Source: Pyrinomonas methylaliphatogenes | Lineage (GTDB): Bacteria; Acidobacteriota; Blastocatellia; Pyrinomonadales; Pyrinomonadaceae | DNA length: 64,000 nt | Assembly (NCBI RefSeq): GCF_000820845.2 | Contig: NZ_CBXV010000004.1 | Coordinates: forward strand, 124,001-188,000 | Reading direction: 5' to 3' | In this document: one piece after another, positions 31,007 through 38,943 of the stretch | How the letters are laid out: every line of letters begins with the position of its first letter | Position numbering within the stretch: position 1 is the first letter of the stretch | Translations under genes and position numbers: made by a program | Notes under the pieces: model-generated | Database searches by the model: none | Told to the model about the DNA's origin: nothing | Seen by the model: the letters and a program-made list of their open reading frames with translations, nothing else

Positions 31007-33382
31007 TTAACTTCTGTTCACGATGCGCCAGATCGTTTCCGGTTTGATCGGCATATCCAAGTGATGGACGCCGAAGGGCGCGAGCGCATCGATGATGGCG
31101 CCGACGATCGCCGGCGTCGCGCCGATGGTCCCGGCTTCGCCGACGCCTTTGATGCCCAAGGGGTTGACATCGGTCGGCGTCTCCGTGCGATCGAGTTCAA
31201 AGCGCGGAATCATATGCGCGCGCGGCACGGCGTAATCCATCAGGCTTCCGGTGACCAGTTGCCCTTGCTCGTCGTAAACGACCTCTTCGTAAAGCGCCTG
31301 CCCGATCGATTGCGCGATGCCGCCTTGAATCTGACCTTCAACGAGCATGGGATTGATCACTTTGCCGCAATCATCGACGGCGACATAGCGCAGGAACTTC
31401 ACGTCGCCGGTCTCCCGGTCGATCTCCACAACGACGATGTGCGTGCCGAAGGGGAAGGTGAAGTTCTTCGGCTCGAAGAAGTATGTCGCTGAAAGTCCCG
31501 GTTCCATGTCGGGCGGGAGATCTTTCGCCAGATGCGCGGCGAGCGCAACGTCTTTCAGCGACACGCTCTTCTTCCCGTTGGGCTTGGGTTCAGGGGGCCC
31601 GGCGGCGGTAACTTCTCCCGCCGCAGCGGCGCGTTTCGCTTCTCGAATTGAGAAGCGACCTTCGCTAAATGCGACCAAAGAGGCATCCGTGCCGAGCAGA
31701 TGGGCGGCGATGCGATTGATCTTCTCTTTCAACTTTTCGATCGCTTTCAAGACGGCCGTTCCGCCGACGGCCGTCGCGCGGCTGCCGAACGTGCCGATGC
31801 CGTACTGCACGATCGATGTGTCGCCATGGATGACGGTGACGTCGTTGATGTCAACTCCCAATTCATCCGCCGCGATCTGCGCGAAACTGGTCTCTTGGCC
31901 CTGACCGTGAGGCGAAGCGCCCGTTAAAATCGTCACTTTGCCCGTCGGTTCGATCCTCACGGTCGCGCTCTCCCAACCGCCGGCGGGCATCGCTTGCGAA
32001 GGGCCGAGCGCGCAGATCTCGACGTAGGATGACACGCCGATGCCGATGAGCCTGCCTTGGTCGCGCGCGCGGCGCTGCTCTTCGCGCAGCTTCGCGTAAT
32101 CCGAAATCTCCAAAGCCTTGTTGAGCGCCGCTTCGTAATTGCCGCTATCGTAGAAAAGCCCGGTTGCGGTCTTAAACGGGAACTCTTCGGGCTTCGGGAA
32201 GTTCTTGCGGCGCACTTCGACCGGATCTAGTCCCAGTTCGGCGGCGACCAGATCCATCGCGCGTTCGACGACGTATGTCGCCTCGGGCCGACCCGCGCCG
32301 CGATATGCGTCGGTCGCCATCTTGTTCGTGAAGACGGCTGTGACGTTGATCTGAATGGCGGGGATTTTGTAGCTGCCCGATAGCATCAAGCCCGTCAGCG
32401 TCGGGATCGCAGGCGTCAGAAGCTGAAGATAGGCGCCGAGATCGGCGATGACGTTATAACGCAGCCCGGTGACGGTGCCATCGTTCTTGCAGCCGATTTC
32501 GATCTCGCCAACTTGGCCGCGCCCGTGAATCGTCGCTTGAAGATTCTCGCGCCGCGTCTCGATCCATTTAACGGGTTTGCCGAGTTGCATCGAGATCCAA
32601 CCGAGCAACGCCTCTTCGCCGTAAACGTTCAACTTCGACCCGAAACCGCCGCCGACTTCAGGGGCAATCACGCGCAGCTTGTTCTCGGGAATGCCGAGCA
32701 TCAAGGCGAGCTGCGTTCTGAGAAGGTGCGGGATTTGCGTCGAAGACCAGATGGTCAATTCCCCTTCTCCCGGAAGGTACCGGGCCAGCACGCCGCGCGG
32801 CTCCATCGCTACGGGGGCCAGGCGTTGATTGACGATGCGTTGCCTGATGACGCGATCGGCAGAAGCTAACGCTGCGTCTATGTCGCCTTCGCCCGCGGTG
32901 AGACGATAGGCGATGTTGTCGCCGAACTGCTCGTGGATCACGGGGCTCCCGGACTTCGCCGCCTCTTCCGCATCGACCACCGCCGGAAGCTCTTCGTAAT
33001 CGACCGTGATGAGATCGACGGCATCGCGCGCTAGGTAAGGATCGGTGGCGACGACGGCGGCGATGGGATGGCCGACGAAATAGACTTTGTCGCGCGCGAG
33101 TGGACGATGATCGGGCACTTTCAGCCCTTCGAGCGCGCTCGCGCATGGCACGGGGCCGATGCGATCGCCGATATCGCGACCCGTGAAGACGGCGACGACG
33201 CCTGGGGCTTTCGTCGCTTCGTCTGAGTCGATCTTGGTGATGCGCGCATGCGCGTAGATCGAACGCAAGAAGACGACATGAAGCGTATCGGGCAAGCGTA
33301 TGTCATCAACGTAGTGGGCCAGTCCCTTGATCAGTCGCGGGTCTTCCGTGCGCTTGACTCTCTGTCCGATGTACTTGGCCAT
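31007..33382 (-). CDS. Molybdenum hydroxylase large subunit, form II CO dehydrogenase/aldehyde oxidase-like
   Basis: 791 aa from ATG 33382, preceded by GGAGG; a longer reading from 33454 lacks conserved residues. N-terminal Ald_Xan_dh domain (YIGQRVKRTEDPRLIKGLAHYVDD) and a molybdopterin-binding domain (GGGFGSKLNVYGEEA; GASPHGQGQETSFAQIAADELGV; GVGEAGTIGATPAIV with the catalytic Glu region). The active-site loop reads DAYRGAGRPEA. AYRGAGR marks form II (putative) CODH; form I enzymes that oxidise CO have AYXCSFR with the Cu-binding Cys. CO oxidation is therefore not supported, and an aldehyde or N-heterocycle substrate is more likely. Confidence 0.92.
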   Translation of the reverse strand: MAKYIGQRVKRTEDPRLIKGLAHYVDDIRLPDTLHVVFLRSIYAHARITKIDSDEATKAPGVVAVFTGRDIGDRIGPVPCASALEGLKVPDHRPLARDKVYFVGHPIAAVVATDPYLARDAVDLITVDYEELPAVVDAEEAAKSGSPVIHEQFGDNIAYRLTAGEGDIDAALASADRVIRQRIVNQRLAPVAMEPRGVLARYLPGEGELTIWSSTQIPHLLRTQLALMLGIPENKLRVIAPEVGGGFGSKLNVYGEEALLGWISMQLGKPVKWIETRRENLQATIHGRGQVGEIEIGCKNDGTVTGLRYNVIADLGAYLQLLTPAIPTLTGLMLSGSYKIPAIQINVTAVFTNKMATDAYRGAGRPEATYVVERAMDLVAAELGLDPVEVRRKNFPKPEEFPFKTATGLFYDSGNYEAALNKALEISDYAKLREEQRRARDQGRLIGIGVSSYVEICALGPSQAMPAGGWESATVRIEPTGKVTILTGASPHGQGQETSFAQIAADELGVDINDVTVIHGDTSIVQYGIGTFGSRATAVGGTAVLKAIEKLKEKINRIAAHLLGTDASLVAFSEGRFSIREAKRAAAAGEVTAAGPPEPKPNGKKSVSLKDVALAAHLAKDLPPDMEPGLSATYFFEPKNFTFPFGTHIVVVEIDRETGDVKFLRYVAVDDCGKVINPMLVEGQIQGGIAQSIGQALYEEVVYDEQGQLVTGSLMDYAVPRAHMIPRFELDRTETPTDVNPLGIKGVGEAGTIGATPAIVGAIIDALAPFGVHHLDMPIKPETIWRIVNRS

Positions 33383-33650
33383 GGTGCCCTCCAAACAGTT
33401 GAGGCGATGAGGGATCGGGAGCGGTTCGAGCGTGGCTTCGCCCTCCAATCTCATCCGGTGACTGAAAAGCGATCACAATCGCCGAACCGTAACCATTTTC
33501 GCCACGGTTTCCGATCGACCCTCATCTTCACTGAAGCGCAACTTAGCTTGAAGATGAATCCATTTGCGATCGTTACTGACTAACCTCGTTTCTGACTCCG
33601 CCGAACTGTGTCGGAATCTCGGTCAGGGGCGAAAAATGCTTCGCTGTGGG

Positions 33651-34127
33651 TTAACTGCCGCTCCCCAATTTCCGCGCCGCATATTGCACAGCTTCGACGA
33701 TATGTTGATAACCCGTGCAGCGACACAGGTTCCCTTCCAAACCGTGCCGAACCTCATCTTCGGTCGGATTGGGATTGCGTTCGAGCAATTGCACCGCCGC
33801 GATGATCATGCCGGGCGTGCAGTATCCGCACTGCAAGCCGTGACATTCCCAGAACCCTTCCTGCACCGGATGCAGTTTGCCGTTGCTCGCCAAACCCTCG
33901 ATAGTCGTCACTTCGGCGCCATCGGCTTGTACGGCGAACATGGTGCAGGATTTGACCGCCTGCCCGTCGATCAGAACGGTGCAAGCGCCGCAGATTGAAG
34001 TGTCGCAGCCGATGTGTGTGCCCGTCAGTCCGAGCACATCGCGCAGGTAGTGAACGAGTAACAGGCGTGGTTCGACTTCGTGGCTATGTTCCACGCCGTT
34101 GACTTTCATGCGGACGGTGGTCTTCAT
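33651..34127 (-). CDS. Molybdenum hydroxylase [2Fe-2S] small subunit (CoxS-like)
   Basis: 158 aa from ATG 34127; an open frame extends to 34298 but the added residues look non-conserved. The plant-type [2Fe-2S] motif is [16 protein letters not shown] and the second cluster is [13 protein letters not shown] with NLCRCTGYQ. Length and order match small subunits of the xanthine oxidase family. It is the first gene of the operon; a 268-bp gap, unusually long, separates it from the large subunit. Confidence 0.92.
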
Positions 34128-34227
34128 GGCGTGGCCTCGCTTTCTTCGCAAAACTGACGGCGAACCAGTTAGGAAAGACGCAATGGAGCCTTCGTCTGTG
34201 GGACTTTTATGCCAAACGGTGAAGAAA

Positions 34228-34377
34228 GTCAATAGCTGTGCAGTTGAGATCTGCGGATCGAGCGTTCCCGCCACTCGCCCGACTAAGAAGAAGGTCAATA
34301 GCTGTGCGGTTGAGATCCGAGTGGGATTAAAATCTCGCGGATGAAAAGGATCAGGTCAATCGTGCGGTTGAGAATTG
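34228..34377. repeat. Three-copy direct repeat upstream of the coxS-like gene
   Basis: GTCAATAGCTGTGCAGTTGA (34228 on), GTCAATAGCTGTGCGGTTGA (34294 on) and a shortened GTCAATCGTGCGGTTGA (34355 on) are spaced 66 and 61 bp apart. The first two also share AAGAA upstream and GATC downstream. They fill much of the 362-bp gap between divergent coxS-like and sigma-factor genes. I see no other gene there. Confidence 0.7.
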
Positions 34378-34489: not shown

Positions 34490-35041
34490 ATGGATGGGCA
34501 GGCGCAAGTTTTGGCGAATTCGGTTTCAAAAGAGACGGCGTCGGAAGCGCTTGCAAGTTTCGATGAGGCCTTCGAGTTGCATCATCGAATCGTCTATCGG
34601 GTCGCCTATGCGCGGTTGCGCGACGCCGCGTTGGCCGAGGATGTCACGCAAGAGGTGTTTTTAAAGTTGTATCGGAACTTGGGGAAGGTGCCGCGCGATG
34701 AAGGCTTGCGCGCATGGCTGCTTCGCGTGACGATCAACGAAGCGCGCGATCTTTCGCGGCGAAGGCGGCGCGCCTCGGCGCGCGAGGAGGCCTTTGCCCA
34801 AAGGGCGAGCGAAAGGTATGCGTTCGATTGCGAAAAGCGTTTGGAGGTTGACGAAGTGCGGCGGGCGCTTGAGCGCGTGCGCGAGCCGGCGCGCAGTTGT
34901 CTTCTGCTTCAGCAGCAAGGCTTGTCATATCGCGAGATCGCCCAAATCCTCTCGCTCAATGAGCGAAGCATAGGCAGCCTGATCGCGCGCGGACGACGCG
35001 AGTTCCTGCGTTTGTACGGAAAGCTCAGAGGGCGGAGATGA
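34490..35041 (+). CDS. ECF-type RNA polymerase sigma factor
   Basis: 183 aa. Region 2 (HHRIVYRVAYARLRDAALAEDVTQEVFLKLYRNL, about 35-68) and region 4 with its helix-turn-helix (LLLQQQGLSYREIAQILSLNERSIGSLIARGRREF, about 140-175) are both present, with a basic linker between them. This is the two-domain layout of extracytoplasmic-function sigma factors. It overlaps the anti-sigma gene by four bases, so both are made together. Likely controls the envelope-protein genes downstream. Start at 34490 follows GAGAAAGA. Confidence 0.9.
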   Translation: MDGQAQVLANSVSKETASEALASFDEAFELHHRIVYRVAYARLRDAALAEDVTQEVFLKLYRNLGKVPRDEGLRAWLLRVTINEARDLSRRRRRASAREEAFAQRASERYAFDCEKRLEVDEVRRALERVREPARSCLLLQQQGLSYREIAQILSLNERSIGSLIARGRREFLRLYGKLRGRR

Positions 35042-35877
35042 AGGAGTGTCTCAAAGAAGAGGTCCTGCAAAGTTACTTTGACGGCGAGTTGGGCCTGATC
35101 GAAGCTCGCTTGGTCGCCGCGCATCTAGACTCATGTTGCGCCTGTGCCGAATTGGCGCGCGCCGTTGAGCGAGAGCGCAGATGCTCCGAGGCGCTCCTGC
35201 AAGCGAACGTCTCGGTTCCGACGGAACATCTGCGCGCGCGCATCTATGAGCGGATCGCCGCTTCGGAGACTCTCGCGGCGGCGCGGCCTCGCTTGAGCGA
35301 AGCGATACGCGCTTGGTTTGCGGAGCTTCGTTGGGTGAGAAGTTATCGGTTGGCTATCGGTTTGGCGTCGCTCGCGATCGTCGGCGGATCGATCCTGTTC
35401 GTCGCGCTTCGCGATATCAAGCGGTTTGAGGAGAATGCGCGCTACGGCCCTCAACCGGAGGTTAAATCGCCCCTGTCCGCTTCGCCGAAGCGCTCGGAGA
35501 GCAGCGTCGGGAATGCGGTCTTGACGCCCGCGCGGACTGCAAAGAGAGCGATGGTCGGACGCGAACGGCGCGGGGCGATGAGAAGGATCGAGAAGACTTC
35601 GCGCGAAGGCGAAGTCTCGCTCGCCGAGCGTGATTATCTGCGCAAGATCGCGGAGCTTGCGCCCAGTATAAACGCGCGCGCCGATCTAGCGCCGAGCATG
35701 AAAGTCGAATTCGAGAAGAACATGCTCGTCGTAGATCAAGCCATCATCGCGGCGCGCGAGGCCATACGGCGCAATCCGCAAGATGCGGATGCGCGCGCGC
35801 TTCTGCGCTCGGCTTATGAGAGCAAGGTCGAGTTGCTAAGCGCGCTGGCGGAACAAGGCGGCATCCCGAAACGTTGA
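35038..35877 (+). CDS. Anti-sigma factor with zinc-finger-like N-terminus
   Basis: 279 aa. The N-terminal LQSYFDGEL and AHLDSCCACAELARAV match the HxxxCxxC zinc-binding anti-sigma (zf-HC2) pattern. One membrane segment lies near 102-122 (YRLAIGLASLAIVGGSILFVAL). The extracytoplasmic part has basic stretches and a helical C-terminal region (YLRKIAELAPSIN, IIAAREAIRRNPQDADARALL, repeat-like). It would hold the ECF sigma factor at the membrane until a signal releases it. Its start overlaps the sigma gene stop. Confidence 0.85.
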   Translation: MKECLKEEVLQSYFDGELGLIEARLVAAHLDSCCACAELARAVERERRCSEALLQANVSVPTEHLRARIYERIAASETLAAARPRLSEAIRAWFAELRWVRSYRLAIGLASLAIVGGSILFVALRDIKRFEENARYGPQPEVKSPLSASPKRSESSVGNAVLTPARTAKRAMVGRERRGAMRRIEKTSREGEVSLAERDYLRKIAELAPSINARADLAPSMKVEFEKNMLVVDQAIIAAREAIRRNPQDADARALLRSAYESKVELLSALAEQGGIPKR

Positions 35878-35888
35878 ACGAGGAGGCT

Positions 35889-36782
35889 ATGATTCGCAAT
35901 CCGCTCATCGGTCTTCTTCTCGCGATCCTGCTGCTGGGCGTGAGGTGCTATGCGCAAAGGAAGGGCGAGGCCGAAATGGAAGTGGCCGGACCGGTCAGCG
36001 TCTCGCTGTGCGTTGAGCAGGGAAGTATCACCGTGCGCGGTTGGGAGCGAAAGGCGGTGCGCGTCGAATCGAGCGATGGAGCGCCGGTCAGATTATCACG
36101 CGAAAATGGCGGTGGCGGCACTTTGAAACTCGAGGTGTTGCCTCCGGAGGCGGAGACGAAATGTCACCGGTGGCGCGATATTAATCTAGACGTACCGCAC
36201 GATGCGACGCTCGATCTAAGGGCGAGGAACGGCGATGTGAAGATAGATGGCGTCGCCAGCGTGCGCGCTCGTTCGTTCAGCGGCGACATCGTCGCCGAAC
36301 ATGTCGCGGAGGCGCTCGATGTCGCGACGCTGAACGGAAATATCAGCTTAAGCGATATCGTCGGAAGCGCGCACGTCAGGACCATGAGCGGAAGCGTCGA
36401 AATCAGGCGCGCGCGCGGACACGGGGTGGCGGATGGATTGTTCGTCAAATCGACCAGCGGCGATGTGACGTTAATCGATGCCGAGTATTCACAGATTATC
36501 ACCGAAGCGTTGAGCGGAAGCATCCTATTTTCTGGACCAATCATGAAGAATGGCCGTTATGATTTGAGGACCTTGAGCGGAGATATCTCGCTTGCGCTGC
36601 CAGCGGAGGCTTCGTTTCGCCTCAATGCTCGCTTCCTGTTGAAGGGCGAGTTCAGCACCGATTTCGATCTTCGGCAAAAAGAGGGCGTCGGGCAGCAACG
36701 CTTGAGCGCGATGCATGGCACGGGGGAAGCCTTTCTCAATCTCGTATCGCTCAATGGCAGGATAGCTTTGCGGAAACGTTGA
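35889..36782 (+). CDS. Exported DUF4097-type beta-helix/adhesin-like protein 1
   Basis: 297 aa from ATG 35889, preceded by overlapping GAGG and AGGAGG; a TTG at 35874 is a poorer choice. A signal peptide (NPLIGLLLAILLLGVRCYAQ) leads into strands repeating a G(D/S)(I/V) pattern: GSITVRGW, NGDVKIDGV, SGDIVAEHV, NGNISLSDI, SGSVEIRRA, SGDVTLIDA, SGDISLALPA. This is the DUF4097/DUF4098 repeat fold. The function of such proteins is not established. It follows the anti-sigma gene directly, so it is probably part of an envelope-stress module. Confidence 0.8.
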   Translation: MIRNPLIGLLLAILLLGVRCYAQRKGEAEMEVAGPVSVSLCVEQGSITVRGWERKAVRVESSDGAPVRLSRENGGGGTLKLEVLPPEAETKCHRWRDINLDVPHDATLDLRARNGDVKIDGVASVRARSFSGDIVAEHVAEALDVATLNGNISLSDIVGSAHVRTMSGSVEIRRARGHGVADGLFVKSTSGDVTLIDAEYSQIITEALSGSILFSGPIMKNGRYDLRTLSGDISLALPAEASFRLNARFLLKGEFSTDFDLRQKEGVGQQRLSAMHGTGEAFLNLVSLNGRIALRKR

Positions 36783-36934
36783 TCGAACTTCGATAGCCCC
36801 GAAACTTTCGCGAACGCATCGAAGGATCGCGGCGTTCATCGTCTTCGCCTCAACCTTCAAAAAGATGTCACAAAGCGAGAGGCCGAGACGTTTTCCACAA
36901 TAGAGTTACAGATTCTGGCCTAAGGAGGGGTGGG

Positions 36935-38587
36935 ATGTCGAAGGCTTTGTTCGTGTCGCTCCTCGGACCGATCTTGCTCATGGCCCATTGGGGGGGCGCG
37001 AAACAGGAGTTGCGCGAAGAGTTGAGTCGAACATGCCCGCTCGTCGCCGATGGGCGCTTCAGATTGAAGAATATAGTCGGTCCGGTGAGTATCACAGCTT
37101 GGGATAGAGCTGAGGTGAGCATCCGCGCGATCAAGCGCGCAAGGACGCAGGCTGCTTTAAACGGGGTGAAGATCGAGATTGAAGCGACACCCGGCGCCGT
37201 GAACGTCGAGACGAAATACGATGACGAGCGCTATCGGAAGGATGACGGCGCGAGCGTCGAATACGAGATCCGCGTGCCGCGCAGGGCAAAGCTCGAATCT
37301 GTCGAAACGGTTGTCGGCTCTTTGGCGATCAAAGGGATCGCCGGATCGGTGAAGGCATCTTCTGTCACGGGCGGCATCGAAGCCGATTTCGATAGCTTGA
37401 ATGAAGGGCAGGGGATCACGCTCAGCACGGTCACGGGGCCGATCAGGGTCGTGCTCCCTTCCGATGCGGACGTGGAGGTGCGCGCCGATACGGTGAACGG
37501 GAGCGTGCGTAACGATTTCGGTCTGGCCGTGCGCCGGAGCGGTTTCATCGGCCAACGTATGGCTGGAACGCTCGGGCGGGGCGGGGCGCGATTGTCGCTC
37601 AATTCTGTGACTGGTTCGATCTCGGTCGTCCGCGCTGTCGATGGGCGGCGAAAGGGCGAGGCGAAAGATTTGTCGGCGGATGCGCGGACGGATTGGGGGC
37701 TCGATAAGAAGGCCATCTCCGGACAGATCCAGCTTCAAATGGAAGAAGCGATCCGCTCGATGCGCAGCGCGATCGAAAGCGCGCAGTTAGAGGCCGAACG
37801 GGCGATCGAGGGCGCGTTCGAATCGCTCGCCATCGGCGATGAGGTTAAGGGGGAGACTCTCCAAACCGAACGCGAAGTGAGAAGTTTCAGCATCAGCGGC
37901 ATGCCTGAAGTCAGCGCCGAAACCTTCGATGGTTCCCTGGAGGTGCGCGGTTGGGACCGGCACGAAGTCCTCATCAATGCGACCAAGCGCGCGCGGAATG
38001 AGGCTGAGTTGCGCGCACTAAAGGTCTCGATCGAAGCGAACGGCAGCAGCGTTTCTGCGCGCGGTGAGCGCGGCGGAAGTTCAAACGGGAGCGTTTCCCT
38101 CGAGATATTTATGCCACGTCGCGCGAAACTGCGTCTGTCGACCGGCGACGGCAGCGTGCGCGTCGCCGATATTGAGGGCGATATCGAAGCGCGAACTGGG
38201 GATGGGACCGTCGAAGTGCGCAACGGTCAAGGCGCGCTCCGTATAAGCACGGGCGATGGTCGCGTGCTCGTTCGCAACTTCTCCGGCGCCGTGACCGCGC
38301 GCACGGGCGACGGCTCGATGAGCTTCGAAGGGCGCTTCGAAAAATTGGAAGCGCGCACGGGCGATGGTTCGATCACGCTCGCGCTCCCGCAGGATCAAGG
38401 GGCGATCATTGAGGCCGAGGCCGAAAAGGTCTTTGCGCGGGATCTCGACGCGACCGAAGAGCATAGCCGGGGGAACACGCATCGTTGGCGTATCGGGAAG
38501 GGTGGGCCGGTGTTCAGACTGCGCACCGACGACGGTCACGTCTTTTTGCGCCGCGCCGGTGAAAGCGTCGTTTATGAGCGAAGGTGA
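36935..38587 (+). CDS. Exported DUF4097-type protein 2, two-part with TGDG repeats
   Basis: 550 aa with a signal peptide (SLLGPILLMAHWGGA) and a strong AAGGAGGGG before the ATG. Two DUF4097-like halves each begin with a RGW/TAWDR..V.I.A.KRAR unit (near 48-75 and about 335-360), so the gene looks like an internal duplication. Between them is a charged helical stretch near 268-305 (MEEAIRSMRSAIESAQLEAERA). The second half has five TGDG units (about 402-485), forming a regular beta-solenoid-like stack. No catalytic motif is seen. It is probably a cell-envelope structural or stress protein co-regulated with the gene before it. Confidence 0.8.
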   Translation: MSKALFVSLLGPILLMAHWGGAKQELREELSRTCPLVADGRFRLKNIVGPVSITAWDRAEVSIRAIKRARTQAALNGVKIEIEATPGAVNVETKYDDERYRKDDGASVEYEIRVPRRAKLESVETVVGSLAIKGIAGSVKASSVTGGIEADFDSLNEGQGITLSTVTGPIRVVLPSDADVEVRADTVNGSVRNDFGLAVRRSGFIGQRMAGTLGRGGARLSLNSVTGSISVVRAVDGRRKGEAKDLSADARTDWGLDKKAISGQIQLQMEEAIRSMRSAIESAQLEAERAIEGAFESLAIGDEVKGETLQTEREVRSFSISGMPEVSAETFDGSLEVRGWDRHEVLINATKRARNEAELRALKVSIEANGSSVSARGERGGSSNGSVSLEIFMPRRAKLRLSTGDGSVRVADIEGDIEARTGDGTVEVRNGQGALRISTGDGRVLVRNFSGAVTARTGDGSMSFEGRFEKLEARTGDGSITLALPQDQGAIIEAEAEKVFARDLDATEEHSRGNTHRWRIGKGGPVFRLRTDDGHVFLRRAGESVVYERR

Positions 38588-38649
38588 ATGGCGAACAAAA
38601 AGATACGCCTCTTCGTAATATTAGGGCGAAGTTAGCTCGGTGAGTGGTT

Positions 38650-38943
38650 ATGAAGAGGAGGAAGGGGCAAAAGGCTATTGAGGAGCGTTTGGTCGTTCTA
38701 GAAGGCTTGATGCGCGATCTCTCGCGCGAGTTGAACGGTCTTCGTAAAGCGACCGAACGTGAATTGGTCAACGGCGGCAGCTTCTATGATCTGGTTCGCA
38801 GTTTCGAACGGAACCTGATCAAGCGCGCGCTCAGTAAAACCAACGGCCATCAAGCGCGCGCCGCACAGCTTCTCGGCATAAAAGCCACCACGCTCAATGC
38901 CAAGATCAAGCGCCTCAATATCTCGCTCGATGAATTCGGTTGA
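38650..38943 (+). CDS. Fis-family helix-turn-helix DNA-binding protein
   Basis: 97 aa from ATG 38650 (a GTG at 38644 would add two residues). The C-terminal half is a Fis-type HTH_8: ERNLIKRALSKTNGHQARAAQLLGIKATTLNAKIKRLNI. The N-terminal half is a likely coiled coil (EERLVVLEGLMRDLSRELNGLRKATERE). No AAA or receiver domain is attached, so it resembles the detached DNA-binding end of NtrC-type regulators. It sits 62 bp after the DUF4097 gene and may act on this same module. Confidence 0.85.
   Translation: MKRRKGQKAIEERLVVLEGLMRDLSRELNGLRKATERELVNGGSFYDLVRSFERNLIKRALSKTNGHQARAAQLLGIKATTLNAKIKRLNISLDEFG

Follow-up and report, generated by a model that had tools for sequence, protein, structure and literature searches.

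Which role could be played by a cluster in which a sigma-factor switch adjoins two exported-looking proteins of the DUF4097/Toastrack family? The question is raised by five plus-strand genes on a 64,000-nucleotide stretch (the window) of the Pyrinomonas methylaliphatogenes genome, namely positions 124,001 to 188,000 of contig NZ_CBXV010000004.1. The source genome comprises 3.79 Mb in 16 contigs and belongs to the family Pyrinomonadaceae. Proteins of this family are found widely and little is established about their function, and to our knowledge little regulation has been mapped so far in the Acidobacteriota. A sequence-only reading of the window had described, at 34490-38943, closely spaced genes for an extracytoplasmic function (ECF) sigma factor, its anti-sigma factor, two exported DUF4097 proteins (here TR1 and TR2) and a stand-alone Fis-type protein. 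All five open reading frames (ORFs) were recovered at these positions in close succession, each with a Pfam match in keeping with its described type. Gene content, linkage, conservation and specificity of a promoter-like site, export-type N-termini and the fold of TR2 were computed here, and the locus is probably an autoregulated ECF sigma-factor module of envelope response.

Linkage of the sigma factor, anti-sigma factor and Toastrack genes

Conservation of the cluster was investigated in 60 genomes, 37 of which belong to the Pyrinomonadaceae (hereafter the family) and 23 lie outside it. Relatives of TR2 were found in 58 and relatives of the anti-sigma factor in 53 of the 60 genomes. Genes for the sigma factor, the anti-sigma factor and a Toastrack-profile protein adjoin each other, on one strand and with gaps below 400 nt, in 28 of the 37 family genomes; G015, in which a contig end truncates the Toastrack gene, is included in this count. 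The sequence-only reading had been made to depend beforehand on conserved linkage in relatives. Since the three genes are adjacent in these 28 genomes, that test was passed for the sigma/anti-sigma/DUF4097 module, which is a real, conserved linkage, but the Fis gene accompanies it only sporadically. Among the nine other family genomes, the anti-sigma gene reads as two ORFs in G025, contig ends split the arrangement in G012 and cut it in G028, the sigma relative of G026 is weaker (71 bits) and G004 has no sigma gene in the locus; the loci of G008, G022, G030 and G035 were not examined for the arrangement.

One class of operon in relatives consists of the sigma factor, the anti-sigma factor, TR1, often another Toastrack of ~300 aa, TR2 and then a CBM9-like/DUF5916 protein of ~860 aa. 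Other family members carry the TR2-DUF5916 pair apart from the sigma operon (e.g. L076, L077, L080).

Promoter-like sites and predicted regulon

Sites were searched by enumeration of spaced tetranucleotide pairs in the sequence 5' of genes. Some pairs recurred in the upstream regions of 16 of 22 sigma genes, whereas in three resampled sets no pair was shared by more than 6. In the window genome the site reads TGYCACAA-N15-YGTTTW and is located 5' of the sigma gene (P1) and 5' of TR2 (P2), while the form in relatives is TGYCACAA-N11-GCGGTGTTTW. With at most one mismatch, P1 and P2 are the only two matches in the whole 3.79-Mb genome, and the reversed pattern gives one. When up to three mismatches were allowed in the window, 19 matches were obtained versus 11.3 expected, and only P1 and P2 had none. 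The congener has counterparts of both sites, with 0 and 1 mismatches; the second (L062:5103-5131) begins 64 nt upstream of L062:5167, the likely ATG of TR2. The site before the sigma gene is conserved, bipartite and of ECF type, and predicts autoregulation. P1 and P2 would both be promoters of this sigma factor.

Counted by regular expression, the site precedes 16 of 22 sigma genes (window included), 6 of 17 small Toastrack genes and 3 of 28 TR2 genes, and none of the 24 anti-sigma, 24 TR1 and 31 DUF5916 genes. The relatives' pattern, with at most one mismatch, was matched 106 times in 35 of the 60 genomes (reversed pattern: 2 matches). These comprise 34 of the 37 genomes in the family versus 1 of the 23 outside it. 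For 40 of the 106 sites, the next labelled gene is a sigma gene in 20 cases, a small Toastrack in 8, TR2 in 5, another Toastrack in 2 and another gene or none in 5. For the other 66 sites, the first gene encodes the same sigma factor (6), a Toastrack-profile protein (16), a member of a ~310-aa repeat family (10) or a LytTR response regulator (2). Of the 16 Toastrack-first sites, L226 is situated in a sigma operon, and no sigma gene is present on the stretch inspected for the remaining 15. The counts for sigma genes are partly circular because the pattern came from sigma genes, those for Toastracks less so. In a check without motif selection, 7 of 18 family Toastrack loci on other contigs, among the matches listed, have a site within ~700 nt upstream. 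Taken together, the sites shared by the sigma gene and TR2 and those of the relatives predict a self-amplifying sigma regulon of exported Toastracks.

The ~310-aa proteins behind the site (L222, L254, L262, L271 and others) begin with a hydrophobic stretch and contain repeats of the form FKIDSxFMREMKASGFPNLGMEELVKARIFKID. The two members scanned matched no Pfam family, and the window genome gave no match to these proteins.

Table 1. Positions and properties of the genes and promoter-like sites of the cluster, numbered along the window.
Feature	Position	Strand	Properties
Promoter-like site P1	34439..34467	+	TGCCACAA-N15-CGTTTT; begins 51 nt 5' of the sigma-factor start codon; exact pattern match
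ECF sigma factor, 183 aa	34490..35041	+	Sigma70_r2 and Sigma70_r4_2; without C-terminal extension
Single-pass ZAS-like anti-sigma factor, 279 aa	35038..35877	+	zf-HC2; H-x3-C-x2-C; AlphaFold2 model
TR1, exported-looking DUF4097/Toastrack protein, 297 aa	35889..36782 (alternative start 35874)	+	Pfam DUF4097; hydrophobic N-terminus; without its own promoter-like site
Promoter-like site P2	36866..36894	+	TGTCACAA-N15-CGTTTT; within the 152-nt gap 5' of TR2; begins 69 nt before the TR2 ATG; exact match
TR2, exported-looking double-Toastrack protein, 550 aa	36935..38587	+	DUF4097; two solenoids, N-terminal and C-terminal, linked by a helical bridge (258-297)
Stand-alone Fis-type HTH protein, 97 aa, accessory	38650..38943 (alternative start 38644)	+	HTH_8; possibly on the P2 transcript

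The sigma factor and its anti-sigma factor

The sigma factor matches Sigma70_r2 (1.2e-15) and Sigma70_r4_2 (2.9e-10) of Pfam, both above cut-off, as well as the NCBIfam sigma70-ECF model (71 bits; cut-off 42.9). The match to region 4 stops at residue 170 of 183, and only regions 2 and 4 are present, as in ECF factors. Its gene shares an overlap of 4 nt with the anti-sigma gene. In the anti-sigma factor, residues H29, C33 and C36 are invariant across 11 sequences, and the best hydrophobic stretch of 19 residues begins at residue 106 according to a hydropathy count. The AlphaFold2 model (11 sequences; mean pLDDT 70.6, pTM 0.35) consists of a helical N-terminal part, a helix at 105-135 with the membrane stretch, a disordered linker at 139-190 and three C-terminal helices at 195-274. 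The pair described by the sequence-only reading was thus retrieved, the anti-sigma factor having the zinc-finger-like (zf-HC2-like) N-terminus and single membrane helix of ZAS proteins. A CnrX-like sensor was considered for the C-terminal helices and rejected, the best Foldseek E value (0.58) not being significant.

Canonical membrane-held ECF pairs are RsiW-SigW and RseA-RpoE. Pairs of this type are named in the available part of PMC3426412. The present pair resembles them in its overlapping genes, in a single-pass anti-sigma factor with a cytoplasmic zinc-finger-like part and in the ECF-type site before the sigma gene; it differs in its Toastrack-rich predicted regulon and in anti-sigma C-terminal helices without significant structural match. 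The promoter is almost identical to that of ECF41, given in the same part of PMC3426412 as TGTCACA-n16-CGTC (or TGTT), versus TGYCACA-N16-YGTTT here. However, ECF41 factors have, according to that text, a long C-terminal extension with regulatory function and lack an evident anti-sigma factor. Because the sigma factor studied here lacks an extension and has an anti-sigma gene, its assignment to ECF41 by promoter likeness was rejected.

The Toastrack proteins

Two start codons were considered for TR1. The TTG at 35874 overlaps the anti-sigma stop codon, and the ATG at 35889 is the more likely start because it is preceded by GGAGG. Both proteins match Pfam DUF4097 above the gathering score of 22.9, TR1 with 51.9 bits (8.5e-14) and TR2 with 65.8 bits in two stretches (5e-18). 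Both have the exported look that had been attributed to them, with a hydrophobic N-terminus and no comparable stretch later, as judged by a hydropathy count, which is not a signal-peptide predictor. In a 43-row alignment of TR2, the hydrophobic N-terminus is present in 42 rows and a membrane-like stretch after residue 120 in none.

The 550-aa TR2 had been described as an internal duplication with five TGDG units and a helical bridge, and each of these features was found. The two halves align with each other (33% identity, E 5e-14), and the TGDG units occur at residues 403, 421, 439, 457 and 475, exactly 18 residues apart. TGDG itself is not conserved, since the count per row ranges from 0 to 6 in the alignment and is 0 in 23 of the 43 rows. 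The AlphaFold2 model (43 sequences; mean pLDDT 87.8, pTM 0.52) shows two beta-rich domains with a helix at 258-297 between them. This bridge was modelled with low confidence, and the relative placement of the domains is uncertain because pTM is only 0.52. Foldseek identified 4qrk (E 2.9e-9), 3pet (9.2e-5) and 3jx8 (1.3e-4) as the nearest solved folds, and the TR2 model is a beta-helix whose closest relatives are Toastrack structures. These belong with 3lyc to the solved 'putative adhesin' structures, and TR2 differs from them in joining two such domains by a helix. We know of no tested function for 4qrk, 3pet, 3jx8 or 3lyc. Sequence searches of the PDB with the TR2 profile and with TR1 yielded nothing useful.

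The DUF5916/CBM9-like neighbour gene of relatives

In 24 of the 27 relatives' TR2 loci of the set L062-L101, TR2 is followed by a DUF5916/CBM9-like gene, the Pfam identity having been checked on three proteins. Of the three exceptions, L062 and L090 are due to contig ends, and L081 is not. A protein search detected DUF5916-type relatives in 54 of the 60 genomes, and none in the window genome, the congener, G031, G036, G041 and G052. The absence from the window genus rests on this protein search, since the Pfam DUF5916 model gave no match in the window genome but none in control genomes either. A DUF5916 partner is thus not needed in the window genus. The DUF5916 protein is presumably an outer-membrane barrel; a literature search retrieved no paper on DUF5916.

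The Fis-type gene

The 97-aa product of the last gene matches Pfam HTH_8 (3.6e-12), in line with the stand-alone Fis-type protein that had been announced. With 28.7 bits against a cut-off of 99 for the NCBIfam Fis equivalog, only the generic HTH_8 domain is recognized. A consensus scan detected no terminator-like site on the plus strand between TR2 and the Fis gene. Its co-transcription with TR2, like the role of Fis, is presumed here. Among the regions inspected, Toastrack operons with a Fis gene were limited to the window, G015 (L070/L114, between two Toastracks) and, as a related operon, L167 of G007. This L167 operon, of ECF type, ends in Fis and encodes a protein that is matched by the Toastrack profile (110 bits) and missed by Pfam. 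The congener contig ends inside TR2 and gives no information on Fis.

A site above 18 bits was found on the same strand within 3 kb upstream of 7 of 43 stand-alone Fis ORFs (40 loci). On the downstream side one of the 43 had such a site, and none of 402 overlapping control segments taken from L062-L101 did. Some LytTR-Fis operons of relatives likewise have a site in front. A regulatory tie of stand-alone Fis genes to the site is therefore plausible, and would seem to reflect a recurrent mode of regulation in the family, not a constant pairing of two genes.

Stand-alone Fis genes were also seen in other settings. L198 and L191 are ECF sigma/ZAS-like anti-sigma/HEAT-repeat operons that end in such a gene, followed by two DUF5916-type genes in L198. 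Elsewhere the Fis-type gene comes after a LytTR response regulator (L173, L174, L177, L183, L186, L192, L199), an arrangement that suggests a three-part regulatory system.

Comparison with the Lia and PSP systems

As in the Lia/PSP systems (LiaG, LiaF, LiaX; available parts of PMC11237479 and PMC11601895), DUF4097/Toastrack proteins are tied here to a transcription switch of envelope stress. In contrast, the switch consists of an ECF sigma factor and a ZAS-like anti-sigma factor, and the five genes include no PspA, PspC, LiaI/LiaF membrane domain or two-component system. A PspA, PspC or LiaI-LiaF partner, by which a Lia/PSP operon is recognized, was not present among the five proteins or the ten relatives' neighbours scanned, the rest of the genome not being searched. 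According to the accessible text of PMC11237479, Toastracks also occur in contexts where a sigma factor is linked to them in the operon, and the Toastrack is proposed to be an intracellular domain next to the membrane. The Toastracks studied here differ by their export-type N-termini, because of which that proposal, as far as the accessible text goes, would be contradicted for this lineage.

The arrangement was not found described in the literature searched, published ECF group lists not having been compared, and the search gave nothing on Pyrinomonadaceae with envelope stress. The cluster appears to be a new form, particular to this lineage, of an established type of envelope-stress system, in which an ECF switch is combined with Lia/PSP-like Toastracks. 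Throughout a bacterial family, a specific site links exported-looking Toastracks with a single sigma factor, and the inducer and the role of these proteins can therefore be sought directly; the site also offers a concrete, testable regulon in the Acidobacteriota.

Proposed mechanism and alternatives

In the mechanism proposed, the ZAS-like anti-sigma factor would keep the sigma factor at the inner membrane until a periplasmic signal, sensed by the C-terminal helices, frees it. The free sigma factor would fire the two near-identical promoters, P1 amplifying sigma factor, anti-sigma factor and TR1, and P2 yielding TR2 and, through read-through, the small Fis protein. TR1 and TR2 would be exported periplasmic beta-solenoids that may serve as scaffolds or shields, or may bind the anti-sigma factor as ligands in a feedback loop. 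In relatives, TR2 would work beside the DUF5916/CBM9-like protein, a probable outer-membrane barrel, and the same sigma factor would drive dispersed Toastrack genes. We infer the signal, the mode of sigma release and the protective function; the term 'envelope-protection unit' of the sequence-only reading draws on the export-type N-termini and on analogy with Lia/PSP.

Several observations weigh against this module. It was deduced from sequence. The zf-HC2 match of the anti-sigma factor (4.9e-4, 20.6 bits) is below the Pfam gathering score of 22.2, and its model has no PDB match in Foldseek at E 0.001 or better. The motif was derived from sigma upstream regions, so that its presence there is not independent, and the pattern used for the window genome, with a relaxed -10 box, was written after both window sites had been seen. 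On a position weight matrix (PWM) trained on 35 sites, namely P1 and 34 from loci of relatives and of all gene classes, P2 is weak with 15.1 bits versus 31.2 for P1, itself part of the training set. One of 20 window resamples reached 19.5 bits; in favour of P2, its score was reached in 1 of 150 further resamples. In the regular-expression count 6 of 22 sigma genes have no site. The same holds for 25 of 28 TR2 genes under the stricter -10 box, including the window TR2, which is missed because its -10 box differs. Finally, about 32 of the 66 additional sites precede diverse genes, some possibly by chance or with other functions.

Other explanations were weighed for the Toastracks. They might act as LiaX-like decoys or sensors. 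Their ligands would be membrane-active peptides or exposed lipid, and in the unbound state they would hold back their own regulator as LiaX does, the sigma factor replacing a two-component system. TR1 adjoins the anti-sigma gene in the same 28 family genomes. For LiaX, the available part of PMC11601895 describes inhibition by the C-terminal part and release of the N-terminal domain, which interacts with daptomycin. NCBIfam models for LiaG (3e-16 and 8.9e-14) and LiaX (0.004 and 1.6e-5) are matched as well. All these scores are far below cut-off and the LiaF, PspC and LiaI partners were missing from the proteins scanned, which makes this explanation unlikely. Alternatively, the regulon could serve outer-membrane or surface assembly, with Toastracks as structural or chaperone-like partners of the DUF5916 barrel and a sigma factor that answers barrel load in a sigma-E-like manner, the window genus keeping the periplasmic half. 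The frequent position of the DUF5916/CBM9-like gene after TR2 speaks for it. Yet no DUF5916-type relative was found in the window genome or the congener, and the barrel nature of the family is presumed, so we regard this as improbable too.

For the Fis gene, an unrelated neighbour is a real if lesser possibility, the unit then being the four upstream genes only. It was detected in G015 alone among the 27 relatives' TR2 loci of L062-L101, and stand-alone Fis genes are met in varied settings, among which a position after a LytTR response regulator is frequent. Against this, such ORFs have the site upstream more often than downstream or in control segments, and the related ECF operons L167, L198 and L191 end in Fis. 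If the envelope-response module is extended to the family, an ECF sigma factor, and not LiaRS/PspF, may run a Pyrinomonadaceae envelope regulon of dispersed periplasmic Toastracks, a DUF5916 barrel operon and second-tier LytTR/Fis regulators. The Toastracks would have a double role, in envelope protection and in feedback to the anti-sigma factor. In the window genus the system would be reduced to a self-contained two-promoter unit, and in the window Fis takes the place of the barrel gene. This extension is tentative.

Other features of the region

A second operon in the window genome (L165; G000:C8, ~384000-387260) encodes an ECF sigma factor, an anti-sigma factor and two small DUF4097-type proteins, the second of which is under the Pfam cut-off. 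Neither a Fis gene nor a promoter-like site was detected in it.

In the intergenic stretch upstream of the sigma site, two 94%-identical direct repeats of 31 nt (34221-34251 and 34287-34317) lie 66 nt apart, and a degenerate third copy was seen by eye at ~34354-34375. They were considered as an operator of the operon and rejected: their 24-nt core is found only as those two copies in the window genome (up to three mismatches), no such repeat was seen by eye in the congener upstream region, and half-site spacing differs between the copies. The region has no Rfam match, and the repeats could be a decayed repeat-spacer element.

On the minus strand, at 31007-34298 of the window, molybdenum-hydroxylase-like genes (xanthine dehydrogenase type, by sequence reading) are divergent from the operon. 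In the two relatives scanned, the same flank is occupied by hemE, coding for uroporphyrinogen decarboxylase.

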